Below the pieces are notes generated by a model. It made no database searches. It saw nothing but the letters and a program-made list of their open reading frames with translations, and had not been told where the DNA came from. The position numbers were made by a program, and so were the translations under genes. This document shows, piece by piece, positions 8,831 through 61,213 of a stretch of 64,000 nt of DNA. The stretch comes from an uncultured Coriobacteriaceae bacterium (lineage in GTDB: Bacteria; Actinomycetota; Coriobacteriia; Coriobacteriales; Coriobacteriaceae), in contig CALUIM010000005.1 in assembly GCA_944320725.1 (NCBI GenBank), positions 62,001-126,000 of the forward strand. Direction: 5' to 3'. Every line of letters begins with the position of its first letter. Position 1 is the first letter of the stretch.

Positions 8831-11800
8831 ATGTCGGGTTTGTGTGAGATGTTAGGTGAACGGTTGAGAAAGCTGCGAGCTGGCAATGCGCGACGTTCGT
8901 ATGCGCACATGCTTGCAGTCGCCCTAAGTTCGGTGCTGTTCTTGCAGACAGCCTTGATGCCGCTCACCGGCGTTGCTGCATATGCGGAGAGCTTGGGTAT
9001 TTTTGGTTTTGGGGCGGACAACCAGGCAGCCCCACAGGCGCTGGGCGAGAACGAGGACGAGATCAAGATCGCCGTCCTCTCCGACATGCACTACTATCCC
9101 GTGAACTTCGTGAGCGATTGCGACGACTACACCACCTACGTGGGCGGCGACCCCAAGATGCTCGAGGAGTCCGGTTCCATCGCCGATGCCGCGCTCAAGA
9201 TGGTGCGCGAGGACAACCCCGATATCCTCCTTGTCTCCGGTGACCTCACCAAGGACGGTGAGTATCAGGGCCATCAGGACCTGGCGGCCAAGTTCCAGGC
9301 GCTCGAGGACGACACCGATACCGAGGTCTTCGTCATCAACGGCAACCACGACATCTACAACTACGTCGACGCGTGCACTTTCCAGAACGGCTACAAGGAG
9401 AGCGCCCAGACCACCACGCCCGACGAGTTCAAAAAGATCTACGCGAACTTCGGCTACAACGGCGACTTCGAGGCCCAGTACTTCACGAACCCTGCTTTCA
9501 GCGAGCAGGCGGGCGGTCTCTCCTATGCCGTCGACCTCGGCCGGTTCACCATCGTCGCCATCGATTCCGGCATGTACAGCCCCGACGCCGGCACCGGCTA
9601 CGACACCAACGAGCACATAACCGCCGGCCGGGTTGACGAGGATCTGCTCCCCTGGGTGACCGAGCGCATCGAGGAGGCCGATGCTGAGGGCGACACCGTG
9701 ATCGGCCTCATGCACCACGGCCTCGTCCCGCACTTCGAGGGCGAGGAGGACATCCTCTCCGAGTACGTGGTCGAGGACTGGCAGAACACGGCGACCGCCT
9801 TCGCCGACGCCGGCATGCGCTACATCTTCACCGGGCACATGCATGCGAACGACATCGCCGAGTACACGACCGTCTCGGGCAACCACATCACCGACCTCGA
9901 GACGGGCTCGCTCTCCTCGTGGAGGAGCCCCATGCGCACGGTGACCATCACCAAGGGCGAGGCGCTGAACGACGGCACGAACCGCACCCATGAGACGTTC
10001 ACCGTGAGCTCGCGCGGCGTGACCTCGATCGACTTCACCGACCACACGGGCGCCACGACCCACATCGATGATTTCCTGACCTACACCCAGCAGAAGCTCT
10101 ATCCCGAGACGCTCTTCAACAACATGGCCAACGGCATGCTCAGGCCCATCCTGCAGGAGATCGGCGAGCAGGGTCTGCGCCCGTGGCTCGCGGAGAACCT
10201 GCCCGACGTCGATATCGACGCCCTGGTCCTCGACGCCGTGCCCGGCCTGCTCGAGGGCGGCATGGACATCGAGCTCGGCACCGGCATCGGCCGCGTGCAT
10301 GTCGAGTATCGCAACGGTGGCATCCAGCTGCAGCCCTCGGGCACGGCGGGGCTCATCGGTGACATGACCATCACCGACGCCCAGATCCTGCGCCTCGTGG
10401 ACGACGTCCTTGCTAAGATCGAGGCTCGCTACATCGACAACCCCGACTGGCTGCTCGGCAAGATCGACGAGATCGTCACAAAGGTCTCGAACTACGGTCT
10501 CACCTCGCTCGATGCCGAGGAGAAGACCATCTACGACCTGGTCTTTGTGATTCTGACCGGACATTACGCCGGCGCCGAGCATCCGCCTGCGTGGGTGGCG
10601 GACGCCGTGGCGACCATTCGTCAGGGCGACATCTTCCAGAGGCTCATCAATGACCTGCTCGACTCCCTCATGCCGATCGTGAACGACGTGCTCGCCAACA
10701 CCTCGATCGACACGAGCATCGCGTTCAGCGGCCTGTGGAAGACCGCGATCGACTCCATGACCAACGACGGCAATCTCAAGGCGACCCTCGAGACCTTCGG
10801 CTTTGACGAGACGGCCATCCGCGCGCTCATCGAGGGCCTCATCAACGAATACATGAGCCCGAGCTTCCTCACGGGCATGGGGAGTCTCGTGGGCAACATC
10901 TGCGACTCCATGCTCTATGACACCAACGGCGCCGACGACGTGATCGGGGGTGAGGGTCGCACCATCACCTTCGACGGCACCACCGAGGCGCCCGAACCCT
11001 CCGTGGAGAACGGGCTTTTGCCCACGCAGGTCACGATGACGCTCGGGCCCAATTCCAAGACCGACCGCGCCGTGCGCTGGTATACCGGCACCAATGTGAC
11101 CGAGGGCGTGGTGCAGGTGGCTACGGACGCGAGCTTCAGCGAGGACAGCCTGGTGAGCGAGGTCGATGCTACCTCTGAGGAGGTCACCAAGCCCAAGACG
11201 CAGCTCAATCTCGGCCTCGTCACCACGTACGGAACCCAGCAGGCGACCAAGCACTCCGCGACCATCCCGGGCCTCGCCGAGAACACCGACTACTACTATC
11301 GCGTGGGCGACAAGGAGCACGGCTATTGGAGCGACGCCATCCCCTTCACCACGGGCGCCGAGACCGATGACGCGGACACCTTCAGCTTCATCAACGTCAA
11401 CGACTCCCAAGGTATGGTCGAGTCCGACTACGACGTCTACCTGAATACGCTCGAGCAGGCGCACCAGACGTTCCCGGACGCCGCTTTCACCGTCCACGGG
11501 GGCGACTTTGTGGATGACGGCGCCAACGAGGACTACTGGACCTGGGCGCTCGATGACGAGAACAACGTGGCCCAGGGTATGGCCATGGCGCCCGCCGCGG
11601 GCAACCACGAGGCGAAGAGCGACGTCGAGGGCATCACGGACGCGAACCCCATCATCTCGCACTTCAACCTTGCGAACGTGCCCCAGGGCCAGGACCTCTC
11701 CACCGGCGTGTACTACTCCTTCGAGTACAAGAACGCCACGTTCGTCGTGCTCAACACCAATGACCTGGGCGCGGATGGCGGCATCTCGCAGGCGCAGTAC

Positions 11801-14800: not shown

Positions 14801-17800
14801 GAGCCCGGCATCAACGAGCTCCCGGTCAGGAGCGACGGCACCTTCTACATCCGCGCTGTGGGCGATGATACCCACGGCCCGAGCGAGGCCGCGAGCGTGA
14901 CCATCAACAAGGTGACCTTCAAGGTCAACGAGGGCGAGGGCTCGTTCGCGGAGGGCTCGCCTACTACGTGGTTCCTTAAGTCCGGCGAGGCAGTCGGTGC
15001 GGGCAACATGCCGACCGTGACCCGCGACGGCTACGTCTTCGCTGGCTGGAAGACCGCGGACGGCACCGAGTTCGATGGTGCGACCACCGTCAACGGCGAG
15101 ATGACGGTCACGGCGCAGTGGAGCGTCGACAATGCATCGGTGGCTCCTGTGGCGCCCACCCCTGAGGGCGTCGCAGAGCTGCTCGCCAACCAGCTGACCG
15201 TGAGTCTTCACGGCGTGAACGAGCTTCATAGCGAGGATGAGGGCGACGACTCCCATCCGGACGTGACCTTCGGCAACGGCGGCATGGCCCAGCTCCCCGC
15301 TGCCGCCTTCGAGGCGACCGCGCCCGCACCGGTCGACGGTCAGGATGGCGTCTATACCATGGCCGTCACCATGGGCGCCCAGGCATTCCTCGATGCCTAT
15401 TCCCAGATGGCGGATGCCGAGGGCGGCGAGCCCTACGGCGAGCATTTCCTTGCCAGCAAGGATGCCCAAGACGAGTTCACGCTCACGCTCGAGCTCGATA
15501 CCACCGATCTTGCCGAGGGCGAGCAGCCCGTGTGGAAGCTCTCCGATGACACGCCCGCAAGCTACACTTTCGACATCACCTGCCTGACCCTCCGTCCTGC
15601 CGAGGCCGAGATCTACACCGGAGGTGCGAGCGATACGGGCGGGCACTTCGTGGACCAGTACGTGATCGACGGGCAGGGCAACGCCTACGCTATCGAGGCG
15701 CTCAATGCCCTGCTCGATGAAGGCACCGAGGCGAGCATCAAGTACTATGCTGAGGACGGCACCGAGGTCACCGACGACACCGAGCCCGGCCATTACATCG
15801 CGCGCATCGATGTCGAGACCATCGGTGCCCAGACGCGCGCTGGGGGCGATGCGGACGAGTCGCTCGAGGTGACGGTCAACGGCAGCGAGTACACCTATGC
15901 GCTCGAGCCCTCTGAGCTCATCATCCGCAGCGTGTCCGATAGCGATAGTGCCGAGCGGGGCGACTGCAACGTCGACCTGCTGGACAACACCGATGCGGAC
16001 GTCATTAAAGCAGCGCTTGCCGAGGCAGCAGGCGGCGTCGTCGCCTCGCTTCCCGCGAACACGACCATCTACTTCAATGGCGATACCTCGATTCCTCTTG
16101 CAAGCACCGATGGCGTGACGCTATTCTCCGACGATCTTCTGCCCGGACAGCGCGAGGCCGAGCTCATCGACCACGCTGAGGAGCAGACGCAGACCACGAT
16201 TGGCGACACGTACGACTTCCAATACCTCGACCTTGTGGACGAGAGCCAATCCAACGCATGGGTGAGCTCGAGCGCAGGTACCACGGTGTACTGGCGCATC
16301 CCCGAAGGAGTGGATCCTGCGAGCGTGAAGGTCTACCACTTCACCGGCTTGCACCGCGACTACACCGCTACGGACGATGAGGTCTCCGACCTCATTGCTC
16401 AGAGCGCGGTCGAGCCCATGGAGCTCACCCCGGGTGACGGCTATGTGAGCTTCACGGTGCCTCCATCCGGCTTCAGCCCCTTCCTTATGGTCTGGGACAA
16501 GCAACAGGCACAGACTGCTACCGTGACCTTTGATGCCGGTGAGGGCCAGCTCGATCAGGGATACCAGGATACCCAGACGGTGACTGTTGGCTCCACGATC
16601 GCACAGTTGCCCACGGCGACACGTACGGGCTACGAGTTCGGCGGGTGGTACACCGACGAGGCCTGCAGCGACGCCAACGTATTCGTTGCCGGAACGACCC
16701 AGGTCACGGGCAGCATGACGCTCCATGCTAAGTGGACGCCCAAGACCTACACGGTCACACTCGATGCCGCCGGTGGCACCATTGAAGGCGCTGGCACAAA
16801 AGAGATCACGGCGACCTATGACATCAAGCTCGGTGTGCTGCCGGAGCCAACGCGTGCCGGATATACTTTCGACGGTTGGTTTACCGCGGCGACCGACGGT
16901 GATCAGGTCACGGCCGAGACCGTGTATACCATCGATGGCACCACGACCTACTACGCGCACTGGATGCTTGCGGCGCCTCAGACGGTGGAGCTTACCTTCG
17001 ACGCGAGCGACGGCATCTTCCCCGGTAATCCCGCGAGCACCACAGCGACAGTTGAGATTCCTGTGAACGGAACGCTGGCTTCCTCTCAGGCACCCGTGCC
17101 CGAGCGCGAGGGCTATGCGCTTGCCGGCTGGTATGTGGGCGACGATCCTGAGGTAGCGCTCGTTTTCTCCAATGAGGCCGATCCCGATCAGGGCATCACG
17201 GCGACGACCTTCGCTTCAGCGACTACGCTCCATGCCATCTGGCTTGAAGACCTCTCAAGTGATGACGACGTCAGCTTCGCCGGCATCAGCCAAGCCTACA
17301 CCGGTAATCCCGTCTTCGCGGCGCCTGTCTTTGGTGCAAGCTTCCCAGCTGAGGAGCAGGATGGCGTAGCGGTGTTCTACCGTCCGGCTGGCGCGTCCGA
17401 TAAGGAGTGGACTGGGGACGCGCCCGTGAACGCAGGTGCCTACGATGTGCGCTTCAGCTACCCGGGTACCGACGCGTACGCGAGGTTTGAGAAAGAATAC
17501 AGCGCCGGCATCGAGATCACGCCTGCAGATTTGAACCAGACCGGGCTGGCAGCTGAGCCGTCAACAGTTGCGGCAGGTACTGCGCTTGCCGACATCAATC
17601 TGCTGGGCGGTACGGTGTCGCTTGCGAGCGGTGTTGAGGTCACGGGCACTTGGCGATGGTCCGATCCTTCTGCTTTCGTAAATCAAGACGGTACTTATCA
17701 GGCAGTCTTTGTGCCAACTATCCCCGAGGGCGGCAGCGCGCATAACTATAACCCGCTCTATGTTGACCTGATGATTACCGTGAAATCCACCGATCCCGAC

Positions 17801-18070
17801 CAGCCTGGTGGGAACACCGATCCAGACGATCCAGATGTCACGCCAGAAGCCCCCGATGGCAATCCGGGTATTCCCAGCGGCAACCCAGACAACCAGGGTG
17901 GCGATGCCGGTAACCAAGGTGGCAATGTCGATGGCAGCCAGACCGAGACAGCACAGGGACTGCTTGTCCAGACGGGCGATAGCCAACTCCTCATCGCCGG
18001 CGCCATAACCATCGTTGCGCTCGTTGCAATAGCGGTCGGCGTCATGGTTCGTAGAAGGCGTCAGCCGTAA
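8831..18070 (+). CDS. Giant cell-wall-anchored protein with two metallophosphoesterase domains
   Basis: 3,079 residues. The start is ATG 8831 behind GGAGG at 8816-8820; GTG 8798 and TTG 8804 are alternatives. Residues 1-52 are a long signal peptide ending AYA. Residues 77-390 form a CpdA-like metallophosphoesterase (DMH at 85, GNHD 171-174, GHMH 335-338). Helical linkers follow to 720, then a purple-acid-phosphatase-like Fn3 domain and a second metallophosphoesterase, 851-1130 (GNHE 924-927, GHDH 1047-1050). A coiled region at 1157-1220 leads to a Gly-rich beta-helix-like part (1224-1607), Ig-like domains, one InlB-B repeat near 2027-2100, three more at 2561-2807, a MBG-like region and a Pro/Gly/Asp linker. 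The C-terminus has LVQTG (3045-3049), a hydrophobic helix and RRRR, a sortase-type signal with Val in place of Pro. It probably removes phosphate from extracellular nucleotides or sugar phosphates; substrates are not predictable. Confidence 0.9.
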   Translation: MSGLCEMLGERLRKLRAGNARRSYAHMLAVALSSVLFLQTALMPLTGVAAYAESLGIFGFGADNQAAPQALGENEDEIKIAVLSDMHYYPVNFVSDCDDYTTYVGGDPKMLEESGSIADAALKMVREDNPDILLVSGDLTKDGEYQGHQDLAAKFQALEDDTDTEVFVINGNHDIYNYVDACTFQNGYKESAQTTTPDEFKKIYANFGYNGDFEAQYFTNPAFSEQAGGLSYAVDLGRFTIVAIDSGMYSPDAGTGYDTNEHITAGRVDEDLLPWVTERIEEADAEGDTVIGLMHHGLVPHFEGEEDILSEYVVEDWQNTATAFADAGMRYIFTGHMHANDIAEYTTVSGNHITDLETGSLSSWRSPMRTVTITKGEALNDGTNRTHETFTVSSRGVTSIDFTDHTGATTHIDDFLTYTQQKLYPETLFNNMANGMLRPILQEIGEQGLRPWLAENLPDVDIDALVLDAVPGLLEGGMDIELGTGIGRVHVEYRNGGIQLQPSGTAGLIGDMTITDAQILRLVDDVLAKIEARYIDNPDWLLGKIDEIVTKVSNYGLTSLDAEEKTIYDLVFVILTGHYAGAEHPPAWVADAVATIRQGDIFQRLINDLLDSLMPIVNDVLANTSIDTSIAFSGLWKTAIDSMTNDGNLKATLETFGFDETAIRALIEGLINEYMSPSFLTGMGSLVGNICDSMLYDTNGADDVIGGEGRTITFDGTTEAPEPSVENGLLPTQVTMTLGPNSKTDRAVRWYTGTNVTEGVVQVATDASFSEDSLVSEVDATSEEVTKPKTQLNLGLVTTYGTQQATKHSATIPGLAENTDYYYRVGDKEHGYWSDAIPFTTGAETDDADTFSFINVNDSQGMVESDYDVYLNTLEQAHQTFPDAAFTVHGGDFVDDGANEDYWTWALDDENNVAQGMAMAPAAGNHEAKSDVEGITDANPIISHFNLANVPQGQDLSTGVYYSFEYKNATFVVLNTNDLGADGGISQAQYDWAYQTLSTADTEWKIVLLHKSPYSNGPHQTDEDVVAIRGQMDALAASCDVDVVLSGHDHVYNRTPYLMRGETQTVTTETQTYQGTNYETAVNPNGTVFIIAGTCGVKNYVQDTTGGIPSQVALDLSVPVYTGFTIDGDHLYYQAYTVSGDSSTMVDSFAISKAEEETPAWQKVEEQIAALPEQSEVTTSDKAAIEAARAAYDALSAEDQQQVSNLDRLVAAERMLSLLESVSGKRTVTVSNHDDFTNAINDPSVGTIITQGTIEFDEGGLFDDGDREIYVRRDVVVRGSGELKYCRFHVENGATLVLAGSVYVNDTRTQGSFYDALNPVEVNAGGTLITQDEVSLRTEYGTGGSDDGVAVKLMGAGATAILGSSGTYWGSEAAVLSTASGTTLVINDGTFNAKNSNRVVIDTHGDATVNGGTISSMWISGTLRVNGGTFEHQDSASSNWTPLAVSGGNAYITGGTFETYNGRDGIASIKLENGARMHILADTNGAVQIGGVNAYVGSPSTTDYENVRLGYVRANGWNGSQDGIYRVDGAASASSVEDIAALNASRLSTNDVSDNGNYMTAALLDGTSTVFGKYWLYGGSSSKGAPSGSGIIGSGEVIVYGPVRTIQNNPVTGVTIDDDATRLVDLNQEGADTLRLTGYTTPANAFDNGITWSSDNAQTASVEERNGQGVVTIKQPGGANITATSDSKPNLSDSVEVIAVRPTLGGPETLDEETSTATYAADKGFQSDAYDSRLTWRYSVNDQTLATIDAKTGALTKLKPGTVTVTATLCLDGEPTAITITKDVVLKAVPEAPEADVVNGLIDVQVSDANTDMAATHTAQTFETLIDNTEGENDSYTIGDVYSEDAAASNPIEGITNFLGITRAAKIYKVDVIIQAAPYVAAFDEALRLEAGSHEVSGDGSKTVTLVWSDGDPSAEPAVSAGWTLEDPEATPVTFQGMCMAAQAAPVLTVTPGADNATVTVTGADGAQLYGDIQWSDHETDWTAGTFHTLEPGINELPVRSDGTFYIRAVGDDTHGPSEAASVTINKVTFKVNEGEGSFAEGSPTTWFLKSGEAVGAGNMPTVTRDGYVFAGWKTADGTEFDGATTVNGEMTVTAQWSVDNASVAPVAPTPEGVAELLANQLTVSLHGVNELHSEDEGDDSHPDVTFGNGGMAQLPAAAFEATAPAPVDGQDGVYTMAVTMGAQAFLDAYSQMADAEGGEPYGEHFLASKDAQDEFTLTLELDTTDLAEGEQPVWKLSDDTPASYTFDITCLTLRPAEAEIYTGGASDTGGHFVDQYVIDGQGNAYAIEALNALLDEGTEASIKYYAEDGTEVTDDTEPGHYIARIDVETIGAQTRAGGDADESLEVTVNGSEYTYALEPSELIIRSVSDSDSAERGDCNVDLLDNTDADVIKAALAEAAGGVVASLPANTTIYFNGDTSIPLASTDGVTLFSDDLLPGQREAELIDHAEEQTQTTIGDTYDFQYLDLVDESQSNAWVSSSAGTTVYWRIPEGVDPASVKVYHFTGLHRDYTATDDEVSDLIAQSAVEPMELTPGDGYVSFTVPPSGFSPFLMVWDKQQAQTATVTFDAGEGQLDQGYQDTQTVTVGSTIAQLPTATRTGYEFGGWYTDEACSDANVFVAGTTQVTGSMTLHAKWTPKTYTVTLDAAGGTIEGAGTKEITATYDIKLGVLPEPTRAGYTFDGWFTAATDGDQVTAETVYTIDGTTTYYAHWMLAAPQTVELTFDASDGIFPGNPASTTATVEIPVNGTLASSQAPVPEREGYALAGWYVGDDPEVALVFSNEADPDQGITATTFASATTLHAIWLEDLSSDDDVSFAGISQAYTGNPVFAAPVFGASFPAEEQDGVAVFYRPAGASDKEWTGDAPVNAGAYDVRFSYPGTDAYARFEKEYSAGIEITPADLNQTGLAAEPSTVAAGTALADINLLGGTVSLASGVEVTGTWRWSDPSAFVNQDGTYQAVFVPTIPEGGSAHNYNPLYVDLMITVKSTDPDQPGGNTDPDDPDVTPEAPDGNPGIPSGNPDNQGGDAGNQGGNVDGSQTETAQGLLVQTGDSQLLIAGAITIVALVAIAVGVMVRRRRQP

Positions 18071-41076: not shown

Positions 41077-42687
41077 CTAGACACCGTACTCGGCGAGATA
41101 GTCGAGAATCTCCTGACGGGAATGCAGGTTGGTTTTGTCGTAGATGCGCTTGATGTGCGTATGCACGGTGTTTTGCGAGAGCTGCAGCTCTTCGCTTACG
41201 CGCGCTTGTGTATGGCCGAGAGCATAGAGCGTGAGCACCTCGATTTCGCGTCCCGTGAGGCCAAACTGCTGTCCCAGCGCGATAACCGACGTGGCGATGT
41301 GCACGTTCGCGGCGCCGCTGGGAAGCGTGCTCTGTCCCTCGGGGGGAACGCCCATCATGCTCATGAGCGGCAGGGCGTCTTTTTCCTCCGCCGAAGGCTG
41401 CTCGCCCGTGGTGCGATCGGCAGAATCGGCCGCGGCGTCGGCGCGCTCCCCGCGTACGGTGTCAGCACCGGTGCTGCCGCCTGGTGCGAGACTCGCTTGA
41501 CGCGATGGATCGCTCAACAGCTGCGTGAAGACCACCTGTGCGCTGGCGAGCACGCACAGCCCCATGATGGCCACCACAAGCGCCGTGTTGTGAGGGGCGA
41601 GCGTTGAGAGCGCGATGCCTGCGGCGCCGCCCACCGCCTCGAGCAGGCACATCGCCACCCAAACCACCGCGGTGTAGAAGTACGGGTCGCGCGTTCCAAA
41701 GCTTAAAAACGCTACGGAGAGATACCAGGCGAACGCCTGCAGAATGAGCGAGGTGGCAAGCGTTGCCGCACGACCTGCCAGCGCACCGCCGCCGCCGATG
41801 GCGATGAGGATCATGGCGCACGAGACCAGCAGCTCCATAACGAGCCACACGAGCGTGGTGAGCGCATGTCCCGTCGCCTTCTGCACGCGCCGCATGCCCA
41901 GGCCGGCGAGCGCAACGATGACGAGAAGCGTGAGGCAGCGTTCGGCGAAGTTGATGAACGGTGCGCTGGTGGCGGGGTCTTTGCCCAGCGGAATCGCAGT
42001 GCCCAAACCAAGCGGTACCGCCATGAAGCAAATGCCGAGTGCCGCCGCCGCAAGATATCCGCGGCTCGAAAAGCGCATCTCGCCCGTTCCGAAATAGGCT
42101 TCCGAGGCAGCAGGGTAAAAATCGCTGGGAACCTGCATCGCGCGCGACGCCTTCACGGCGGCGAACTGCACGAACGCAAACACGAAGGCAGCTCCATAAG
42201 CCACCGTGTCCGTCCAACCGAATACGAAGACGGCTATCTCGGAGCACGCCGCAGCGGCAAGCGCCACGAGGGCAACCTCGCGCGCTGCGGTGCCGCGGAG
42301 CTTGCGGAGCCAGAAGCATGCAAGTGCCGCATTGCCTCCGGCAACGATGGCCTCGAGGAGGGCCACTACGATACTGGGCAGCTGCGCCCCCATGATGCCG
42401 ATGAGCATGAGTACGAGCGCGGCGATGCCGGCGACATGAATCGAAAGAAACGTGAGGAGCGCCACGCGCGGCTTGGGAAGGCGTCCCGCGCGCTGGGCGA
42501 TGGCGCCGAGCAGGGCGATGAGCGCACAGCCGAGCACCATGGGGACAAAGTCGAGCGATGGCGCCGCACCGCCGCGATGGCCGTTGAAGAGCGTGAGGCT
42601 CAGGCAAGCAGAGGAGAGTGCAAGGCCCAGCACTGGCGGTATGAGCGAGCGCGTGCCCAGCGCATCGTCGCGAGCCTCTTCCGCCAT
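41077..42687 (-). CDS. LuxR-type regulator with multi-helix membrane domain
   Basis: 536 residues. Residues 20-400 hold about twelve hydrophobic helices. A linker rich in Ala/Asp/Glu follows, and the last 70 residues are a LuxR/FixJ helix-turn-helix (QFGLTGREIEVLTLYALGHT, then LSQNTVHTHIKRIYDKTNLH). Membrane-bound LuxR proteins of this plan are abundant in Coriobacteriia and often lie beside respiratory reductase genes they control. AAGGAGGTGA precedes ATG 42687. It is divergent from 42812 and 1.8 kb from the oxidoreductase operon, so it is the leading candidate regulator for both. Confidence 0.9.
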   Translation of the reverse strand: MAEEARDDALGTRSLIPPVLGLALSSACLSLTLFNGHRGGAAPSLDFVPMVLGCALIALLGAIAQRAGRLPKPRVALLTFLSIHVAGIAALVLMLIGIMGAQLPSIVVALLEAIVAGGNAALACFWLRKLRGTAAREVALVALAAAACSEIAVFVFGWTDTVAYGAAFVFAFVQFAAVKASRAMQVPSDFYPAASEAYFGTGEMRFSSRGYLAAAALGICFMAVPLGLGTAIPLGKDPATSAPFINFAERCLTLLVIVALAGLGMRRVQKATGHALTTLVWLVMELLVSCAMILIAIGGGGALAGRAATLATSLILQAFAWYLSVAFLSFGTRDPYFYTAVVWVAMCLLEAVGGAAGIALSTLAPHNTALVVAIMGLCVLASAQVVFTQLLSDPSRQASLAPGGSTGADTVRGERADAAADSADRTTGEQPSAEEKDALPLMSMMGVPPEGQSTLPSGAANVHIATSVIALGQQFGLTGREIEVLTLYALGHTQARVSEELQLSQNTVHTHIKRIYDKTNLHSRQEILDYLAEYGV

Positions 42688-42720
42688 GCTGTCACCTCCT
42701 TGAAGATCAGGGTGGATGCG

Positions 42721-42776
42721 GGTCACCTGTTTTAGGTCATTCCGCAGGTGAATAGAAGTATACCTTGTACTACACT
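42721..42776. promoter_or_regulatory. Divergent LuxR region with CAGGTGA boxes
   Basis: GTCACCTGTTTT at 42722-42733 (AAAACAGGTGAC on the minus strand) and CAGGTGAA at 42745-42752 are inverted relative to each other. TACACT at 42771-42776 could be the rightward -10, which puts the second box at the -35. The same AAAACAGGTGAC appears at 44295-44306 upstream of the oxidoreductase operon. Confidence 0.5.
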
Positions 42777-42811: not shown

Positions 42812-43591
42812 ATGGAAGATACGGACGCGCAGCGCGCATACGCTGAGGCTGACGTCGAGGCGATACCAGCGGATGGCGAAGACGCTGAGCGTGCGCTCAC
42901 TGAGGAGAAGCGTGCGGCAATACAGGCGCGCAACGCATTCATTCGCGCGGCAGACGCGGCGCTCACCGATATCCGCCAGCGTTCCTACGAGGGCAAGCTC
43001 ACCACAACGACGCGCTGGAAGAAGCGCGCTTTTGCCCCCGTGGGCATGGATGCCAAGACGTTCACCGAGCAGCTCATGATCTACATCCAAGATCGCGATC
43101 ACGCCGAGGCGAAGCCTGTGATGGGGCGTGTGGCTGCCCCGAAGCCCTTGGAGGTCGAGCTTGAAGGCGTCGAGCTTGCCGATACCGACGAGCTGCCCGA
43201 CCTCGATGTGAGCGACATCGCGTTCATATTTGGCAAGAAGGGCATCTACCTGTATTCGGTGGCGTTGCTCTCGCACAGCTTTGCCCGCGCGCTGTACCTC
43301 ACGGCCGAGGATAACGATATGGCGACGTTCGTCGATGTGGTGCGCACAGAATCGAGCACGTATCCGCGACCGGTAGGTATCGATGCCTTCATGAACCCGC
43401 CGTATCTCTGGCCGCGTTCCAAGACGCTTCGCGTGTTTGACGAGGTGGTTGCCACGGGCTCGTTCAACGATATCAAGCAGACTGCGACGTCGTTCGGCAC
43501 GCCGTATTTCTACTCGGATATGTATCTCAGCGAAGCGCAGGCTGCCTCGCTGGCGCAGTGGTATGGCGTCGAGCGCGGCATGAATCCGTAA
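42812..43591 (+). CDS. Protein of unknown function next to NifU-like gene
   Basis: 259 residues, soluble. The N-terminal third is acidic and helical (ALTEEKRAAIQARNAFIRAA). The C-terminal part (about residues 125-259) is a compact domain with many aromatics (GIYLYSVALLSHSFARALYL, NPPYLWPRSKTL). No Cys cluster, signal peptide or membrane helix is seen. I recognise no family. It is divergent from the LuxR gene and 35 bases upstream of the NifU-like gene, so it may assist maturation or regulation of the nearby metalloenzyme; this is inference. Confidence 0.75.
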   Translation: MEDTDAQRAYAEADVEAIPADGEDAERALTEEKRAAIQARNAFIRAADAALTDIRQRSYEGKLTTTTRWKKRAFAPVGMDAKTFTEQLMIYIQDRDHAEAKPVMGRVAAPKPLEVELEGVELADTDELPDLDVSDIAFIFGKKGIYLYSVALLSHSFARALYLTAEDNDMATFVDVVRTESSTYPRPVGIDAFMNPPYLWPRSKTLRVFDEVVATGSFNDIKQTATSFGTPYFYSDMYLSEAQAASLAQWYGVERGMNP

Positions 43592-43626
43592 TACCCATTT
43601 GCGTGAGACGTGGAGAAGGAGCAGCT

Positions 43627-44220
43627 ATGCCCAGACATCTTACCGAGGACGCGCCGTTTTTGCGGACGCCCGACATGTATCAGATCGAGCGCGACGCGCC
43701 CATCTCGGAATACCCCAAGCAGGCGATTGACCTGATTGCCGATGCGGTGAACGGCGGCGTGCCCGAGGGCGCCAATGCGTTCTGCAGTGTTGGCAAGGAG
43801 AAGCGCGGCACAGTGCAGATGCAGCTCTTCGCCGTCGTCGATGCGTCTGAAGATCGCTTCGTCGAGGTGGGCTTCCGAAGCCATGGGTGCCTTGCCGCCA
43901 TTGCCTGCGCCACGGCGATCGCGACGCTGCTGCGGGGCAAGACGATAGCAGAGGCGCTTGAGATCACCCGTGAGGACATCACGGCGCTTACCGGCGAGCT
44001 GCCCGAGAGCCGTGCCTACACCTATATCTTTGCCCTCGAGGCCATTCGCGCGCTGGTGGGCAACTACTGCTTGAAGCAAAAGGGGTACTCGATTGCCGAC
44101 CTTGATGCGTTCGCGCCCTGCCAGAAGCTCAGCGTTCCGTGCATGCTCACCGAGAACTGCTCGCTGCGCGACGATCGCGTGGAGCAAGAGCTCAAGGAGC
44201 GTGGCGAGCTCAAGGGTTAG
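43627..44220 (+). CDS. IscU/NifU-like iron-sulfur scaffold-related protein
   Basis: 197 residues. VEVGFRSHGCLAAIACATAI and LLRGKTIAEALEITREDITA match the core of IscU/NifU proteins, including the Gly-Cys loop. A first Cys is present in NAFCSVGK. The third cluster ligand, usually in an HCS motif before the final helix, is absent (ESRAYTYIFALEAIRAL). Extra Cys occur in the C-terminal extension (PCQKLSVPCMLTENCS). It may be a divergent scaffold or sulfur carrier. AAGGAG precedes ATG 43627. It sits 260 bases before the ferredoxin-oxidoreductase operon. Confidence 0.8.
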   Translation: MPRHLTEDAPFLRTPDMYQIERDAPISEYPKQAIDLIADAVNGGVPEGANAFCSVGKEKRGTVQMQLFAVVDASEDRFVEVGFRSHGCLAAIACATAIATLLRGKTIAEALEITREDITALTGELPESRAYTYIFALEAIRALVGNYCLKQKGYSIADLDAFAPCQKLSVPCMLTENCSLRDDRVEQELKERGELKG

Positions 44221-44280: not shown

Positions 44281-44384
44281 CAGGTGGGTACCCCAAAACA
44301 GGTGACAGGGCTTCTATGCTGGTAGCGACCTGAAAAGGCAAATTACCCAGAAGCAGGTGAAGCCGCGTGACCAAATAAGGTGAC
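44281..44384 (+). promoter_or_regulatory. Repeated CAGGTGA boxes upstream of oxidoreductase operon
   Basis: CAGGTGG begins at 44281, CAGGTGA at 44299 (in AAAACAGGTGAC) and at 44354 (in AAGCAGGTGA), and AAGGTGA at 44377 (in AATAAGGTGAC), all in the same orientation in the 260-base gap. They match the boxes at the LuxR gene. The -10/-35 of the operon is not clear. No gene is seen in 44221-44480. Confidence 0.5.
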
Positions 44385-44480: not shown

Positions 44481-45203
44481 ATGAAAGAGAACACCGCCTT
44501 GGAGCAGGTGGGCTCCGGCGCGGATCGCCTCAACTCCTTCTTTACCCGTCGCGGGTTTGTGAAGGTGTCGGGGGCGTTCGTGGCGAGCATGGTGGCTCTC
44601 GGCCTGCTCCCGGAGCCGGCGGCGGCAGCGCCGACGAGCTCGAACGGAGCGGTTGACTACTATGCGTGCCCCACGCACGTGCTCAAGGTGAACCGTGCCC
44701 GCTGCACGGGTTGCCAGCGTTGCGAGATGAGCTGCACGCTCACCAACGACGGCGTGTCCCAGCCTGCGGCCGCCCGCATCCACGTGCGCGACGGCTTCAA
44801 CTTCGGCGCCGGGCTCGACACGGCCGACGGCACCTTCTACTCGCAGGAGTGGCAGGTCCGTACGTGCCACATGTGCAAGACCGCGCTCTGCCAGACCGCA
44901 TGCCCGCATGGTGCCATCTTCACCAACGAGAACGGCGTGCGCGTGGTCGATGCCGAGAAGTGCGTCGGCTGCGGCAACTGCGTGTCTGCGTGCCCGTGGA
45001 ACATGCCCGTTGTGAACACCGTGACCGGCAAGTCCTCGAAGTGCGTCGCCTGCGGTCGCTGCGTCGAGCAGTGCCCCAACGGAGCCATCGAGCTCATCGA
45101 GTGGGAGGATGTCAACCATTCCTCCGGCCCGACTCGCTTCGAGACCACGTTCCCGCTGGTGAGCGAGACGCAGGACTTCGTCGGCGGCGGCCACGTCGCG
45201 TAA
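44481..45203 (+). CDS. Tat-exported 4x[4Fe-4S] ferredoxin subunit
   Basis: 240 residues. The N-terminus carries a twin-arginine signal (TRRGFVKVSG, Arg23-Arg24, then VASMVALGLLPEPAAAAP). The mature part has four cysteine groups of the DmsB/HycB type: CTGCQRCEMSC, CHMCKTALCQTAC, CVGCGNCVSAC and CVACGRCVEQC, enough for four [4Fe-4S] clusters. It is the electron-transfer subunit for the oxidoreductase 17 bases downstream, comparable to the E. coli ydhY-ydhV association. GGGGAGGG precedes ATG 44481. Confidence 0.93.
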   Translation: MKENTALEQVGSGADRLNSFFTRRGFVKVSGAFVASMVALGLLPEPAAAAPTSSNGAVDYYACPTHVLKVNRARCTGCQRCEMSCTLTNDGVSQPAAARIHVRDGFNFGAGLDTADGTFYSQEWQVRTCHMCKTALCQTACPHGAIFTNENGVRVVDAEKCVGCGNCVSACPWNMPVVNTVTGKSSKCVACGRCVEQCPNGAIELIEWEDVNHSSGPTRFETTFPLVSETQDFVGGGHVA

Positions 45204-45220
45204 GGTAAGGAGTAACTTAA

Positions 45221-47473
45221 ATGGCTGATACTGCCACTTTCGGTTCTTACGGTTGGATGGGCCAGATCGCCCGTGTCAACCTCTCGACCGGCGAGATCAC
45301 GGTCGAGTCCGACGAGGCCATGCAGAAGGACTACATCGGCGGCATGGGCTTCGCCAACAAGATCATGTACGACGAGGTGCCCGCTGGCACCGCGTGGGAC
45401 GCCCCCGAGAACAAGGCTGTTCTCGCCGTGGGCCCGCTCACCGCTTCCGGCGTGCCCCTGGCTGGTCGCTCCACGTGGGCGACGCTGTCCACCTTCTCGA
45501 AGGACTTCCTCATCGTCGACGCGCACTGCGGCGGCAACCTGGGCGCCCAGCTCAAGTTCTCGGGTCATGACGGCCTCATCATCGAGGGCGCCTCCGAGAC
45601 CCCGTGCTACATCCTGATCGACGATGACAAGATCTCGATCGAGGACGCCTCCGCCGTCTGGGGCAAGGGTACCCGCGAGACCACCGAGGCGCTCTGCCAG
45701 AAGCACGGTCTCGAGGCTTGCGTGGCCGCCATCGGTCCCGCGGGCGAGAACCTGCTCCCCTATGCGTGCGTCATGAACACCCGCAGCCACTCCGCGGGCG
45801 CTGGCCTGGGCGCCGTGCTCGGTTCCAAGAAGTGCAAGGCCGTTGTGGTCAAGGGCACCAAGGCTGTCAACGTTGCCGACCCGCAGATGGTCTCCGACCT
45901 CTCCGATTACATGATCGCCGAGGTCCTGGGATCCAACAACAACCATGTTGTGCCGTCGACCCAGCAGTCCTGGGCCGAGTACTACGACGCTGGTTCGCGT
46001 TGGACCGCCAAGAAGGGCCTGTACTGGGCAGCTGCCGAGGGCGGCCCCATCGAGACCGGCGAACCCAAGCCCTTCGAGCCCAACACCATGGGCTATCGCT
46101 GCATGAAGTCCACCAAGGACATGGGTCCCGAGGCCGAGAAGTACACCGTCAAGATGGCCGGCTGCCACGGCTGCCCCGTGCGCTGCTACTCGATGATTCG
46201 CGACCCGCGCGTCCTCGAGGCCACCGGCTACGCTTCTTCGGGCAACACCTGCGTGCCGAACTTCCCGTTCTCCACGTACATGCAGCCCATCATGAAGGCT
46301 CAGGGCATCATGAACGACGAGGTCAAGACCGATACCTCCGTCTTCTATGACCAGCTCATCTCCGCCACGGTCGATGACCTTGGTCTGTGGTGCAACTACG
46401 CGCAGCTCTACCGCGACATCGCCTGGACCTATGCCCAGGGCATCCTCGCCGAGCACGTGCCGGCCGAGCAGATGGCCGAGTACAACTTCGACGCCATCGT
46501 GAACAACGGCGACCCCACCTCCTTCATCAAGATCCTGGTGGACATCGCCTCCAACGACGTCGAGAACAAGCCCATCGCGCTGCTGGGTCACGGCCCGATG
46601 GTGTGGTGCAAGGAATGGAACCACATGGAGTGGTTCGACACCACCGCCTCCACCCTCATCAACTACCGCGGCTGGCCCGTGCACCACGCGCACGAGTGCT
46701 TCGGCCAGGTGGGCGCGCTCTACAACATGGTCTTCAACCGCGACGACATGATTCACTCCGCGGTGAACTTCCAGGGCTGCGGCCTGCCCATCGACCTCAA
46801 GAAGGAGATGGCCGAGGAGATGTGGGGCTCGGCGGACGCGGTCGACCCCAACAAGGACTACACGCCCATGAACGAGGCCAAGGCCGAGTTCTGCTGGTGG
46901 TCCATCGTCACCGACGTGCTGCATGACTGCCTGACGCTGTGCAACTGGGTGTGGCCCATGGCCATGGCGCCCGCCAAGGAGCGCAGCTACCGCGGCGACC
47001 TCGACCTCGAGGCCCAGTTCTACACCGCGGTCACCGGCCAGGAGATCACGATCGACGATCTCTACAAGGCCGCCGAGCGCGTCATGACCCTCCAGCGCGC
47101 CAACACCGCGCGCGGCATGACTGACGCCGATGGCAACATGGGTTGCAACGACTTCCGCAACATCCATGACACCATTACCGAGTGGCCCTTCACCAAGGAT
47201 CCGGACATCGAGCCCTTCACCGCCGGCACCGACAAGATGGAGAAAGAGGACTGGCAGACGGCCCTCACCATGCTGTACAAGCGTTTCGGCTGGGACGAGG
47301 AGCTGGGCTGCCCCACCAAGGAGTGCCTCGAGGACCTCGGTCTCGACGACGTTGCCTCCGACCTCGAGGAGCTCGGTCTCCTTACTGAGGGCGGCGCCGC
47401 GTACGACGATCGTACCCGCACCTACGCTGGTTGCCTTGCCGAGTACTGCGGCGACAACCCGGCGCTGGCCTAG
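45221..47473 (+). CDS. Aldehyde:ferredoxin oxidoreductase-family tungsto/molybdoenzyme
   Basis: 750 residues. The N-terminal domain (VNLSTGEITVESDEAMQKDY, then GPLTASGVPLAGRSTWATLS) binds a bis-pyranopterin cofactor in this family. The [4Fe-4S] ligands read Cys315, Cys318, Cys322 (GCHGCPVRCYS) and Cys574 (CLTLCNW). It is longer than archaeal AORs (about 600) and close in length to YdhV-type enzymes. It has no signal peptide, although its ferredoxin partner has a Tat signal, so it may be exported as a passenger or act at the inner face. The substrate is unknown: aldehydes, carboxylic acids or aromatic compounds occur in the family. TAAGGAGTAA precedes ATG 45221. Confidence 0.93.
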   Translation: MADTATFGSYGWMGQIARVNLSTGEITVESDEAMQKDYIGGMGFANKIMYDEVPAGTAWDAPENKAVLAVGPLTASGVPLAGRSTWATLSTFSKDFLIVDAHCGGNLGAQLKFSGHDGLIIEGASETPCYILIDDDKISIEDASAVWGKGTRETTEALCQKHGLEACVAAIGPAGENLLPYACVMNTRSHSAGAGLGAVLGSKKCKAVVVKGTKAVNVADPQMVSDLSDYMIAEVLGSNNNHVVPSTQQSWAEYYDAGSRWTAKKGLYWAAAEGGPIETGEPKPFEPNTMGYRCMKSTKDMGPEAEKYTVKMAGCHGCPVRCYSMIRDPRVLEATGYASSGNTCVPNFPFSTYMQPIMKAQGIMNDEVKTDTSVFYDQLISATVDDLGLWCNYAQLYRDIAWTYAQGILAEHVPAEQMAEYNFDAIVNNGDPTSFIKILVDIASNDVENKPIALLGHGPMVWCKEWNHMEWFDTTASTLINYRGWPVHHAHECFGQVGALYNMVFNRDDMIHSAVNFQGCGLPIDLKKEMAEEMWGSADAVDPNKDYTPMNEAKAEFCWWSIVTDVLHDCLTLCNWVWPMAMAPAKERSYRGDLDLEAQFYTAVTGQEITIDDLYKAAERVMTLQRANTARGMTDADGNMGCNDFRNIHDTITEWPFTKDPDIEPFTAGTDKMEKEDWQTALTMLYKRFGWDEELGCPTKECLEDLGLDDVASDLEELGLLTEGGAAYDDRTRTYAGCLAEYCGDNPALA

Positions 47474-47493
47474 TTGCCTGAGAGGAGATAGCA

Positions 47494-48162
47494 ATGGCTG
47501 ACGAGAAGAAGGAGACCACGGGTACCACCGAGGCCGCTCCTAAGAAGAAGAATTGGAAGGCGAAGCGCCTGCCCATCGTGATCGCCGCCGTCGTGGTTGT
47601 CACGGTGCTGGGCGTCGCCGGCTGGGCCTGGCGCGCCACGCCCGAGTACTGCGACTCCATGTGCCACAGCACCATGGGCAAGTACTACAACTCCTACATG
47701 AACGACACCGAGTCGCTCGCCTATGCGCACAAGGGCGTTGTCGAGGGCGACTGCCTGGGCTGCCACGAGCAGACCCTCTCGCAGATGGGCAGCCAGATCT
47801 CGGCGCAGCTCTCCGGTAGCCACGAGACCCCGCTTGCCAAGGAGACCTACTCCAACGAGTTCTGCCTGCAGAGTGGTTGCCACGCGGGCGCCGGTGTGAT
47901 GCCGGGTGCCTCTGAGTCGTCCACGGCCGACCTCAGCTTCGATCCGCACAGCGATTACCACGGCGTGCAGCAGTGCAACTCCTGCCACCGCTTCCATGAC
48001 CAGAGCGTCTTCACTTGCGCTACCTGCCACCAGGTTGGCGCCTGGGAGGGCGAGGGCGGCGTGCCTGAGGGCTGGACCGTCCAGGATCTTGGTTACGGCA
48101 AGGAGGGCGCTGTGCCCGACGGCTGGACCACCCCCGACCTGTTCGAGACCGCGTCCGAGTAG
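47494..48162 (+). CDS. Membrane-anchored multihaem cytochrome c, NapC/NirT-like
   Basis: 222 residues. Residues 27-46 are a single N-terminal helix; the rest is outside the cell. Canonical CxxCH haem sites are at Cys87 (CLGCH), Cys161 (CNSCH) and Cys175 (CATCH). Two atypical sites, CDSMCH at 53-58 (C-x3-CH) and CLQSGCH at 124-130 (C-x4-CH), stand where the other haems would be expected. The tail repeats G-V/A-P-E/D-GWT twice. It is probably a quinol-linked electron carrier for the preceding two subunits. GAGAGGAGA precedes ATG 47494. Cytochrome c maturation genes are not in the window. Confidence 0.9.
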   Translation: MADEKKETTGTTEAAPKKKNWKAKRLPIVIAAVVVVTVLGVAGWAWRATPEYCDSMCHSTMGKYYNSYMNDTESLAYAHKGVVEGDCLGCHEQTLSQMGSQISAQLSGSHETPLAKETYSNEFCLQSGCHAGAGVMPGASESSTADLSFDPHSDYHGVQQCNSCHRFHDQSVFTCATCHQVGAWEGEGGVPEGWTVQDLGYGKEGAVPDGWTTPDLFETASE

Positions 48163-48634: not shown

Positions 48635-49894
48635 ATGTTCGGACGCAGACGGGACAACCAGCGACAGGGTACGGGCGCCGCCGCAGCGGCAGATGGGCGC
48701 GGTATCACGCGGCGTCGTTTCGCGACGGGCACCGCGCTCGCCATCGGCGCCGGCATTGCGACGATCAGCCTGACGTCGTGCGGTAACGACAAGAAGAAGC
48801 AGACAACGGGCGAGCCCCAGGTGGTGACCGATGATTCGCAGGTCATCTCGGTGCTCGACGGCGACTATGCCAACGTCGATAACCCGCTGGTGGAGTCTGG
48901 CAGCTGGACGCTCCCCTTAGGCACGCTGCTGTTTCACACCGGCGGCACGTGGGCAGCGGCGATGCTCACGCCCGAATCGTCGCTCCATATCAATACGCTG
49001 GGAACGCTCAGCCTCTCGAGCGGGAATATGGTCACGCTGCTCGAATCGCCGGCGCAGGGGCGCGGCTTTGACTTCTTCGACGTGCGCTGCTCGGACGAGG
49101 TCTATGCGTGGGTCGAGATCAACTACACCGATCGTTCATGGGCGCTCTTGGGTCAGGGATTTTCTTCCGGCAGCCTCACCGGCGACCCCGTTCAGCTCGA
49201 TTCAGGCGATGTCGATTGGGAGCCGCCGCGCTTCACGGTGTGGGGCTCGAGCGTGATCTGGCAGAAGATGCCGCTTGCAACTGGCGAGGCGTCGTCTGAA
49301 GACTCGCATTGCTATCGCTGGACGCTCGGCGATACCGAAGGTTCCGATCTGTGGACGTCGCACGGGCGCTTTGCCACAAGCCCGCGCGTCTCGAACGGAA
49401 TTCTCACCATTGCCCCGCGCGTGCGCGGCGATGAGGGCGTGTACTACGGCATGACCGCCATCGACCTTACCGATGACAACAACACGCAGGTCGACCAGCT
49501 CGTATTGCCACGCACCGTGGCGCCATTTACGGCCGACTATATGAACGAGTCGTTCGTCTTCTCCATCGAGGCAAGCTACAACGGCTTAGGGAGCCTAGGC
49601 AACATGGGCACCTTCGTGGGACGCGAGGGCGGGCCCTACACCTATGTGCGCCGAGAGCCGCTCTCGGCCGCGGTGGGCAACGGGTCGCGGCTGCTTGTTA
49701 AGGCGCAGGCCTCGAATTTCGTCATCGACCTCGAGGAGCATACGTACGCTACCCTTCACGCCCCCGATCGATCGCTCGATTTTGGTGAGTGGCCGGCAAC
49801 CGAGGGTGCCAGCGAGCGCTTCCTTTCGTATGCCACCGTGCGCAACGACCAAGGCGTTCCCGAGAGCGTGGTGGCGCGCGTCTTCAGTATCTAA
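48635..49894 (+). CDS. Tat-exported lipoprotein of unknown function
   Basis: 419 residues. The N-terminus has a Tat motif ITRRRFATGTALAIG and a lipobox LTSC (about Cys49), so it is a lipid-anchored surface protein. The mature part is rich in beta strands with repeated aromatic-aspartate turns (LWTSHGRFATSPRVSNGILT), suggesting a beta-propeller-like fold. I recognise no enzymatic motif. It starts 21 bases after the TSCPD gene. A two-component system follows after 163 bases. Confidence 0.8.
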   Translation: MFGRRRDNQRQGTGAAAAADGRGITRRRFATGTALAIGAGIATISLTSCGNDKKKQTTGEPQVVTDDSQVISVLDGDYANVDNPLVESGSWTLPLGTLLFHTGGTWAAAMLTPESSLHINTLGTLSLSSGNMVTLLESPAQGRGFDFFDVRCSDEVYAWVEINYTDRSWALLGQGFSSGSLTGDPVQLDSGDVDWEPPRFTVWGSSVIWQKMPLATGEASSEDSHCYRWTLGDTEGSDLWTSHGRFATSPRVSNGILTIAPRVRGDEGVYYGMTAIDLTDDNNTQVDQLVLPRTVAPFTADYMNESFVFSIEASYNGLGSLGNMGTFVGREGGPYTYVRREPLSAAVGNGSRLLVKAQASNFVIDLEEHTYATLHAPDRSLDFGEWPATEGASERFLSYATVRNDQGVPESVVARVFSI

Positions 49895-59432: not shown

Positions 59433-60698
59433 TTAGATCGCGGCGCTGAGGCTGCGCGCGCGGCGGATGGCTTCGGGGACGCGAGCGGCTAGTAGGTCGA
59501 TATCCTTGGCACGCACATCATCGGCAAGCGAAAGACGCAGGCTGCCGCGCGCCCAGCGCGGATCGGTTATACCGAGCGCGGTGATGACATGCGAAGGCCC
59601 GGTCTCGCCTGTGGAGCAGGCTGAGCCCGTGGCGGCGGCAACACCTGCGCGGTCGAGCAGCACCACAAGTAGCTCGCCATCCACGTCTTTGCAAAGGAGC
59701 GAAGCAATGCCCGGTAGGCGACGGTCGGCATGGGGGTCGCCGGTTGCGCGCACGTCGGGAACAGTAGTAACAATGCGTTCGATGAGCTCGTCGCGAAGAT
59801 GCGCCACGCGTTCCATGCGCGCTGCTTGATCATTGAGCTCCTGCTCAAGTGCGGTCGCCATGCCAACGGCACCTGCGACGTTTTCGGTGCCGGCACGCAT
59901 GCCGCGCTCCTGAGCGCCCCCTTGGATAAGGGGCGGAATGGAGAACCCTTCGCGCAGGTAGAGCGCGCCGGTTCCGCGCGGTCCGTGGAACTTGTGCGCC
60001 GAGAGCGAGAGCGCGTCCACGTCAAGCTCCTGCACGTTTACCGGGATATGTCCTACCGCCTGCACCGCATCGGTGTGGAAGGGCACGTCATGCGCGTGTG
60101 TTATCTGAGCGAGCTGAGAGACCGGTTGGATTGTGCCCACTTCGTTGTTGGCGAGCATAATCGATACCAGCGCAGCAGGGGGAGCGTCGATCCCATCGGC
60201 ATCGTTGCGCTGCTGTAGCTGCGCAAGCGTTTTTGCGAGCGTTTCCGGCGCTACGTGGCATTGCGCATCGACGGGCAGGTAGATGGTCTCCACGCCGCTG
60301 CGTGCGAGTGCCTCGCAGGTATGGAGCACCGCATGGTGCTCGACAGCGCTGGTAATCAGGCGAACGGGAGCATCCGCTCCGTAGAGATCGCGAAACCGCT
60401 GCACGGCCCCGGTAAGCACCCATACATCAGATTCCGATCCACCGCTCGTGAAATAGATTTCGCGCGGCAACACCGCGCCAAGGCATGAGGCGATGCGCGA
60501 GCGCGCCGCCTCGAGTGCCTCCGCAGCTTCCCGCGAAATGCGATGGATGCCGCTCGGGTTGCCGTAGGCGGAGGTGAGATACGGCATCATGGCATCGAGC
60601 GCCGCGGGCGCAAGCGGTGTGGTGGCGGCATTATCTGCGTAGATGTAGGGCATATCGGCGGCGTGCGCCGCTGCTTCATGCGGTGTAGATTCGTTCAT
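59433..60698 (-). CDS. Cysteine desulfurase (NifS/IscS class)
   Basis: 421 residues, pyridoxal-phosphate enzyme that takes sulfur from cysteine for Fe-S clusters or tRNA thiolation. The opening YIYADNAATTPLAPAAL, PLP Lys236 in SAHKFHG, and persulfide Cys361 in GSACSTGE are visible. GAGGAG precedes ATG 60698. It could supply sulfur to the nearby redox module or to tRNA modification; the window gives no stronger clue. The gene is 26 bases downstream of a small membrane protein gene and may share its transcript. Confidence 0.95.
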   Translation of the reverse strand: MNESTPHEAAAHAADMPYIYADNAATTPLAPAALDAMMPYLTSAYGNPSGIHRISREAAEALEAARSRIASCLGAVLPREIYFTSGGSESDVWVLTGAVQRFRDLYGADAPVRLITSAVEHHAVLHTCEALARSGVETIYLPVDAQCHVAPETLAKTLAQLQQRNDADGIDAPPAALVSIMLANNEVGTIQPVSQLAQITHAHDVPFHTDAVQAVGHIPVNVQELDVDALSLSAHKFHGPRGTGALYLREGFSIPPLIQGGAQERGMRAGTENVAGAVGMATALEQELNDQAARMERVAHLRDELIERIVTTVPDVRATGDPHADRRLPGIASLLCKDVDGELLVVLLDRAGVAAATGSACSTGETGPSHVITALGITDPRWARGSLRLSLADDVRAKDIDLLAARVPEAIRRARSLSAAI

Positions 60699-60724
60699 GA
60701 TGGCTCCTCGCGACACCGAAGAGC

Positions 60725-61213
60725 TTACCGCAGAATGAAGAACCAAGCCACGACAGCGATGATAACTAGCAGCGCGACAAGCAGCACGATATGCGCGACG
60801 TGCCGGCGCGCTCGCGCCTGCCGTGCGGTGAAAATCGCCTTGCCGGGCTTGGGCGTTTGGAGGTAGCGCTCGTAATGAAGCGGCGCGTGTTGAGGTTGAC
60901 CGTCTGGTCCCGCGGTGCGCTGCTGGCGTGGATGGGCAGGATGCGTGGGCCGTGTGCGGGGCAGATATTGCGGGTCGGAGGTGGCGACGCCCATATGCTT
61001 GCGGCCACTGGGAGCATCTACGTGCACCTGGTCGTCTTGAATGGGCTCTTGGGTGACATGCTGTCGCGGTCGTTGGTACGGGGCGCTCGACGACGTATAT
61101 CGTGGGGTGTCCGCATGCGATGCGTGCGCAACATCGTGCAAGGGCGCACGCATTGCGTCAACGCCCTGCTCGCGTAGATAGCGCGATGCGTTGCTGTTAT
61201 TGGTGCCGGCCAT
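60725..61213 (-). CDS. Tail-anchored hypothetical protein
   Basis: 162 residues. The first 125 are hydrophilic and low in predicted structure, rich in His, Pro, Arg and Gln (HPAHPRQQRTAGPDGQPQHA). A single C-terminal helix (about 140-160, VLLVALLVIIAVVAWFFILR) anchors it. ATG 61213 follows GAAGGA. No family recognised. It is upstream of, and close to, the cysteine desulfurase gene. Confidence 0.7.
   Translation of the reverse strand: MAGTNNSNASRYLREQGVDAMRAPLHDVAHASHADTPRYTSSSAPYQRPRQHVTQEPIQDDQVHVDAPSGRKHMGVATSDPQYLPRTRPTHPAHPRQQRTAGPDGQPQHAPLHYERYLQTPKPGKAIFTARQARARRHVAHIVLLVALLVIIAVVAWFFILR

Follow-up and report, generated by a model that had tools for sequence, protein, structure and literature searches.

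The window analyzed here is a 64,000-nucleotide stretch of contig CALUIM010000005.1 from an uncultured Coriobacteriaceae bacterium. It carries an operon of three genes encoding an iron-sulfur (FeS) protein with a twin-arginine translocation (Tat) signal, a catalytic subunit of the aldehyde:ferredoxin oxidoreductase (AOR) family and a pentahaem cytochrome c. All three genes are real and intact and form a functionally coherent set, and the system to which they belong reaches ~3.4 kb further upstream, where genes for a YdhW homologue, a NifU-like protein and a divergent membrane LuxR-type regulator are found, together with operator-like 17-bp dyads (table 1). As judged from sequence comparison, the catalytic subunit is of the YdhV type (Class V WOR, clade 41) and is not an ordinary AOR.

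Table 1. Genes and operator-like dyads of the ydhV system, in window positions.
Feature	Position	Strand	Remarks
Membrane LuxR-type regulator	41077-42726	-	~11 transmembrane helices and GerE helix-turn-helix (PF00196); start likely ATG near 42687
Operator-like dyad (TACCCnnAAnCAGGTGA type)	42723-42739	-	luxR/ydhW divergent promoter; 18.1 bits
YdhW homologue (accessory protein)	42812-43591	+	NF007411, 105.6 bits (cut-off 203); 23% identity to Escherichia coli YdhW
NifU_N-like protein	43558-44220	+	PF01592, 1.5e-16; translation probably from ATG 43627
Operator-like dyad 1	44289-44305	+	upstream of catalytic operon
Operator-like dyad 2	44344-44360	+	55 bp from dyad 1
Tat-signal 4x[4Fe-4S] protein, YdhY/WorS-type	44481-45203	+	240 residues; PRK09898/NF007382, 170.8 bits (cut-off 213)
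YdhV/WorL clade-41 type catalytic subunit	45221-47473	+	750 residues; NF007354, 964.8 bits (curated cut-off 868)
Pentahaem cytochrome c, membrane-anchored, Cgr1-like	47494-48162	+	222 residues; PF14537; NF051471, 88.4 bits (curated cut-off 340)

The Catalytic Operon and Its Electron Modules

The three genes lie on the same strand, separated by 17 nt (FeS-AOR) and 20 nt (AOR-cytochrome), and the same order was observed in all 23 Coriobacteriaceae genomes with the catalytic subunit. In these Coriobacteriaceae-type loci (type A, n = 23) the first gap ranged from 9 to 36 nt and the second from 18 to 27 nt. The FeS subunit carries a TRRGFVK twin-arginine signal (FFTRRGFVKVSG) and four 4Fe-4S motifs with 16 cysteines in all, and scores below the family cut-off; the cytochrome has five haem motifs and a single transmembrane helix at the N terminus; and the four cluster cysteines of the catalytic subunit (C315, C318, C322 and C574) are invariant in the alignment. 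The preliminary description of this DNA, which had claimed a single operon with these three products, was thus borne out on each of these points. Purifying selection was indicated for all genes of the system (ratio of nonsynonymous to synonymous substitution rates ~0.05-0.4, window vs four relatives), and the GC content at third codon positions (GC3) of the three operon genes, 0.88-0.90, is the highest in the window, which may reflect strong expression.

The catalytic subunit consists of the Pfam domains AFOR_N and AFOR_C, passes the NF007354/YdhV cut-off and shares 51% identity with E. coli YdhV. A further cysteine, C344, is invariant in 18 sequences and aligns with Cys336 of E. coli YdhV, a position computed from the alignment rather than from a structure. 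According to a 2025 review, Cys336 is an extra metal ligand that YdhV has in common only with BamB, and the clade lacks the second-shell residues that are usual in aldehyde oxidisers (PMC12096430). Since the aligned column is also Cys in one ordinary AOR (9g7j), the residue alone is neither diagnostic nor proof of ligation. In a profile alignment, the catalytic Glu313 of Pyrococcus furiosus AOR stands opposite a non-Glu column in the YdhV-type clade (the one second-shell position mapped), and the window subunit accordingly falls outside AOR sensu stricto, which is defined by that residue. It has no signal peptide of its own; its WorS-type partner with a Tat signal, together with at least one further subunit, is the combination that defines Class V WORs (a WorS partner with a Tat signal or transmembrane segment being required). 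A 2026 survey described these enzymes as confined to clade 41 and membrane-associated, with Collinsella among the hosts and no activity or role assigned (PMC13328260).

The haem motifs of the cytochrome show an unusual spacing (CX3CH, CX2CH, CX4CH, CX2CH, CX2CH) that recurs in all 23 loci and in a same-genome paralogue. PF14537 was the sole family match, and none was obtained to the NapC/NirT family (NrfH/NapC quinol dehydrogenase) at the sequence level, the structure model (predicted local distance difference test, pLDDT, 47) being too poor for fold comparison. The cytochrome scores far below the curated cut-off of the Cgr1 family; it may work like Cgr1, though it is not classed as one. The paralogue, a second pentahaem Cgr1-like cytochrome, is encoded on another contig of the window genome (L123:7942-11895, contig C2) and is followed by a Tat flavin adenine dinucleotide (FAD) flavoprotein of the vinyl-phenol-reductase/flavocytochrome c type, with which it forms a Cgr-like pair, and by a membrane LuxR.

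A YdhV-family protein above the cut-off was found in 74 of 300 genomes of the class, and two loci (L081 and L055) carry two such genes each. The cytochrome gene directly follows the catalytic gene in 23/23 genomes of the window's family and, within Coriobacteriia, in Coriobacteriaceae-type loci only. In the Eggerthellaceae-type loci of the order-mates (type B, n = 52), the catalytic gene is divergent from the FeS gene, and the latter is followed by genes for a Tat MopB protein (PhsA/QrcB-like), an FeS protein and an NrfD-type membrane protein. The type B MopB gene (e.g., L063:1588-5197 and L101:9902-13544) adjoins the FeS subunit gene, and its product, which may either bind a metal cofactor or serve as a scaffold for electron transfer, matches QrcB over nearly the whole length. 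In E. coli the corresponding module is YdhX-YdhU, with YdhU a cytochrome b. These results indicate that the electron module is exchanged between lineages, as a cytochrome c, an NrfD-type complex or, in E. coli, a cytochrome b. Conservation of the trio, which the preliminary description had proposed to survey across Coriobacteriia, thus held within Coriobacteriaceae but failed in the Eggerthellaceae-type loci with their MopB-FeS-NrfD module. Its suggestion that a membrane-wired AOR is a novel type is unsupported, because the Class V WOR class of clade 41 has already been described (PMC13328260) and includes E. coli ydhYVWXUT. The orphan class itself is known; what is new here is the recognition of YdhW, the NifU-like protein, the divergent membrane LuxR and the shared dyads as parts of the system.

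Upstream Genes and Shared Dyads

The ydhW and NifU-like open reading frames (ORFs) overlap in the window, and in 10 Eggerthellaceae-type loci (L055, L056, L062, L064, L073, L093, L101, L103, L105 and L106) the two are one ORF with the NifU-like part N-terminal, which suggests joint action. The window YdhW falls below the family cut-off. The NifU-like protein departs from the NifU/IscU scaffolds, which have three conserved cluster cysteines: Cys76 and the third Cys of IscU are not conserved, and the protein has its own invariant C188, C195 and C201 (ORF numbering). A structure model of YdhW, predicted from an alignment built without the E. coli row, has a pLDDT of 92 and a mixed alpha/beta fold; no solved structure in the PDB matched it at E below 0.001, and weak winged-helix-like resemblances (best over ~70 residues) were below significance. 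A TorD/NarJ-type chaperone was considered and rejected, as there was no Pfam match to such a family and no significant PDB match, and the model is not all-helical. YdhV has been reported to have a labile cluster and no known chaperone (PMC9103625). Our guess, drawn from linkage, fusion and shared dyads and consistent with that report, is that the YdhW/NifU-like pair may act in assembly, which would make it a candidate YdhV chaperone.

The LuxR proteins of the ydhV loci form one group by sequence score: orthologues at Coriobacteriia ydhV loci score 83-178 bits against the window LuxR, most above 110, whereas unrelated LuxRs score at most 42. The exceptions to this split are two second LuxR ORFs within ydhV loci (118 and 130 bits). 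The promoter of the catalytic operon contains two copies of TACCCnnAAnCAGGTGA, 55 bp apart, and such a tandem pair was found in 20 of the 23 type A loci, with a spacing of 54-57 in 19 of these. When the window was scanned with a matrix built excluding the window and its nearest relative, the top three matches were the tandem copies (24.8 and 24.1 bits) and the copy in the luxR/ydhW promoter; the next match scored 14.1 bits, and 13.9 bits was the maximum over 12 random 64-kb sequences. This matrix, trained solely on Coriobacteriaceae-type promoters, was also scanned over the 52 Eggerthellaceae-type loci (737 kb). The dyad was found in the FeS/AOR promoter in 42/52 loci and at most 400 nt from the start of YdhW, NifU-like or LuxR in 26/52, with two matches elsewhere; the interval of L055, which has a second AOR copy, is too wide to inform the count. 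The LuxR is predicted to bind the dyads. Simple sigma-70 promoters were neither found nor expected above chance.

Two genes lie just 3' of the operon and outside the conserved cluster in the maps made, encoding a TSCPD-domain protein (TIGR03905; 48348-48614, + strand) and a Tat-signal protein without a family match (48635-49894, + strand). Elsewhere the window contains a cysteine desulfurase-like ORF (YADNAATTPLAPAAL; 59433-60746, - strand), ~11 kb away from the operon, and a 3090-aa ORF (8798-18070, + strand) that probably encodes a giant surface protein.

Cofactor Genes and the Membrane Electron Donor

We compared the 23 enzyme-bearing with 20 enzyme-less Coriobacteriaceae genomes. Cytochrome c assembly (PF01578) was found in 23/23 YdhV+ vs 0/20 YdhV- genomes and, inside the sole mixed genus, in 11/11 vs 0/18; no p-value is attached to this association because the genomes are related. 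The window genome encodes CcmA, B, C, E and F together (CcmA and CcmB by ORF reading); cytochrome c maturation by System II was discarded, ResB being absent and system I present. The molybdenum cofactor protein MoaC was found in 23/23 YdhV+ vs 16/20 YdhV- genomes. Cofactor genes are thus no marker of ydhV alone, as those 16 genomes own enzymes of the dimethyl sulfoxide (DMSO)-reductase or xanthine-oxidase family. Proteins of the former family occur in 2/23 YdhV+ vs 13/20 YdhV- genomes, and those of the latter in 13/23 vs 16/20. At least one of the three Mo/W enzyme types occurs in each of the 39 MoaC+ genomes, and none in the four MoaC- genomes. YdhV is the sole enzyme detected of the DMSO-reductase, xanthine-oxidase or AOR family in nine of the 23 YdhV+ genomes, that of the window among them (sulfite-oxidase-type enzymes lay outside the search), and genes for MoaA and MoaC-MobB are present in the window genome. 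YdhV- genomes of the family (e.g., G107 and G141) encode a DMSO-reductase-family protein of 753-779 aa, mostly with one in-frame TGA, which is probably a selenocysteine formate dehydrogenase.

UbiA was found in 9/23 enzyme-bearing genomes, in 0/20 of the others and in 12/12 order-mates tested, and the three of the nine matches that were checked were all MenA. The window genome (99.5% complete; control positive in 14/14) and its four genus-mates yielded no UbiA match. The cytochrome may thus take electrons from menaquinol in some hosts; candidates for the electron source of the window host are a scavenged quinone or another membrane donor. The preliminary description had also depicted a quinone-facing cytochrome in a respiratory enzyme without a known substrate. 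The former is unproven, with no UbiA/MenA found in the window genome or its genus; the respiratory-type architecture gained support, as cytochrome c assembly is limited among family genomes to the enzyme carriers.

Proposed Mechanism, Alternatives, and Related Systems

Taken together, our best reading, to which we give a probability of about 0.6, is that the system is a YdhV-type (Class V WOR) anaerobic reductase that works outside the cytoplasm and is induced by its substrate. While folding in the cytosol, the catalytic subunit would take up one [4Fe-4S] cluster and a Mo- or W-bis-metallopterin with Cys344 as ligand, and YdhW and the NifU-like protein would help to load or protect the cofactors. 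The subunit would then leave the cytosol by hitch-hiking on the Tat-signal FeS subunit, and the exported enzyme would dock on the membrane-anchored pentahaem cytochrome. Electrons supplied by a membrane donor (menaquinol in hosts that make it) would pass through the five haems and the four [4Fe-4S] clusters and reach the catalytic centre, where a compound outside the cell would be reduced; this compound would be sensed by the divergent membrane LuxR, which would switch on both operons via the dyads. At the sequence level, this reading is supported by the gene set, the signals and motifs, the conserved linkage, the shared dyads and the co-occurrence with genes for cytochrome c assembly and the Mo cofactor; from these we infer the export of the catalytic subunit, the direction of electron flow, the role of the YdhW/NifU-like pair and the sensing by LuxR. 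On this view the Mo- or W-containing enzyme is probably both exported and connected to a membrane haem protein. Several observations weigh against this reading: the catalytic subunit lacks its own export signal and a 2014 survey predicted a cytoplasmic YdhV in two Eggerthellaceae genomes, those of Gordonibacter and an Eggerthella (PMC4257093); MenA was not found in 14/23 operon-bearing genomes, the window's included; and four loci (L045, L048, L049 and L053) have neither a YdhW nor a NifU-like gene in their neighbourhood.

The reductive direction is suggested by analogy with Cgr1-type cytochromes, for which a role in supplying electrons to a Tat-exported reductase has been proposed (PMC5953540), with the paralogous cytochrome-flavoprotein pair of the same genome and with BamB, a reductase with the same Cys ligand. 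The enzyme could instead be an extracytoplasmic dehydrogenase that oxidises an aldehyde or another donor outside the cell and passes the electrons via the cytochrome to a quinone or another acceptor. The AOR fold and the reversibility of the electron chain would allow this, and characterised relatives beyond the YdhV/BamB clades do oxidise aldehydes (PMC12096430); however, the Glu313 column is non-Glu in the YdhV-type clade, which per the same review lacks the conserved second-shell residues, and the L subunit of CsWOR41 was inactive on 46 aldehydes, although it was assayed without its partner subunits (PMC13328260). We consider oxidation unlikely, if the least unlikely of three alternatives.

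A detoxification or stress outlet, in which a toxic or oxidised compound is removed at the surface with electrons supplied by the cytochrome, would share its enzyme anatomy with energy respiration, and nothing specific counts against it. The patchy occurrence of MenA, by which a proton-motive quinol cycle is not demonstrated, and the high GC3 of the three genes, possibly a sign of strong expression, speak for it; we regard it, too, as improbable. To our mind the poorest prospect of the three is a catalytic subunit that stays in the cytosol with soluble ferredoxin or another cytosolic partner while the exported FeS protein and the cytochrome serve something else. The missing signal peptide and the 2014 prediction speak for such an arrangement, but the twin-arginine motif of the FeS subunit, present across the Coriobacteriia loci examined, argues against that prediction. 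In addition, the FeS subunit is the WorS/YdhY partner, the FeS and catalytic genes are always adjacent (in one run in type A, divergent in type B) and share the dyads, and the protein distances of the AOR-FeS pair are the best correlated among the three genes (r = 0.70).

Building on the exported reductase, we tentatively suggest, at less than even odds, a regulon conserved in Coriobacteriia whose core is an exported, Cys-ligated metallopterin reductase that has a new chemistry and uses one specific gut compound for respiration. The reductase would be built by a dedicated assembly pair, YdhW together with the NifU-like protein with altered cysteines, and be plugged into the electron module of each lineage, and several Collinsella species would maintain the entire Mo/W cofactor pathway for one reaction. 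YdhV is an orphan molybdoenzyme of E. coli, a host whose many other Mo enzymes hide its effect. Because YdhV is the sole Mo/W enzyme detected in nine genomes, a Mo/W-dependent phenotype there would point to YdhV, and the question becomes testable in cultured strains with little Mo/W-enzyme background; the dyad and the membrane LuxR offer a promoter-based reporter route to the substrate.

Among known systems, E. coli ydhYVWXUT (Class V WOR, clade 41) resembles the window locus in its catalytic subunit, the YdhY-type FeS partner, YdhW and the ligand cysteine. However, the cytochrome b YdhU, YdhX and YdhT are not among the window flanking genes, and the window has instead a pentahaem cytochrome c, the NifU-like protein and, divergently transcribed, a membrane LuxR that has dyads of its own. 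The type B loci share the catalytic subunit, the Tat FeS subunit, YdhW, the NifU-like protein, an orthologous LuxR and the same dyad, but their FeS and catalytic genes are divergent, and PhsA/QrcB-like MopB, FeS and NrfD-type genes replace the cytochrome. The Cgr1-Cgr2 digoxin reductase of Eggerthella lenta likewise combines a Cgr1-type membrane cytochrome and an exported reductase, with a membrane LuxR nearby (PMC5953540, PMC9734109); its catalytic subunit is a flavoprotein, whereas the window encodes a Mo/W enzyme and a cytochrome under the Cgr1 cut-off. The class II benzoyl-CoA reductase BamB has the AOR fold and the extra cysteine metal ligand (PMC12096430), but it belongs to a large electron-bifurcating complex, and sequence search gives only the common AOR family match. 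Finally, AOR sensu stricto shares AFOR_N/AFOR_C and the four cluster cysteines, but differs in the catalytic Glu column, which is not conserved in the window clade, and in its use of soluble ferredoxin in place of an exported FeS partner and a cytochrome.

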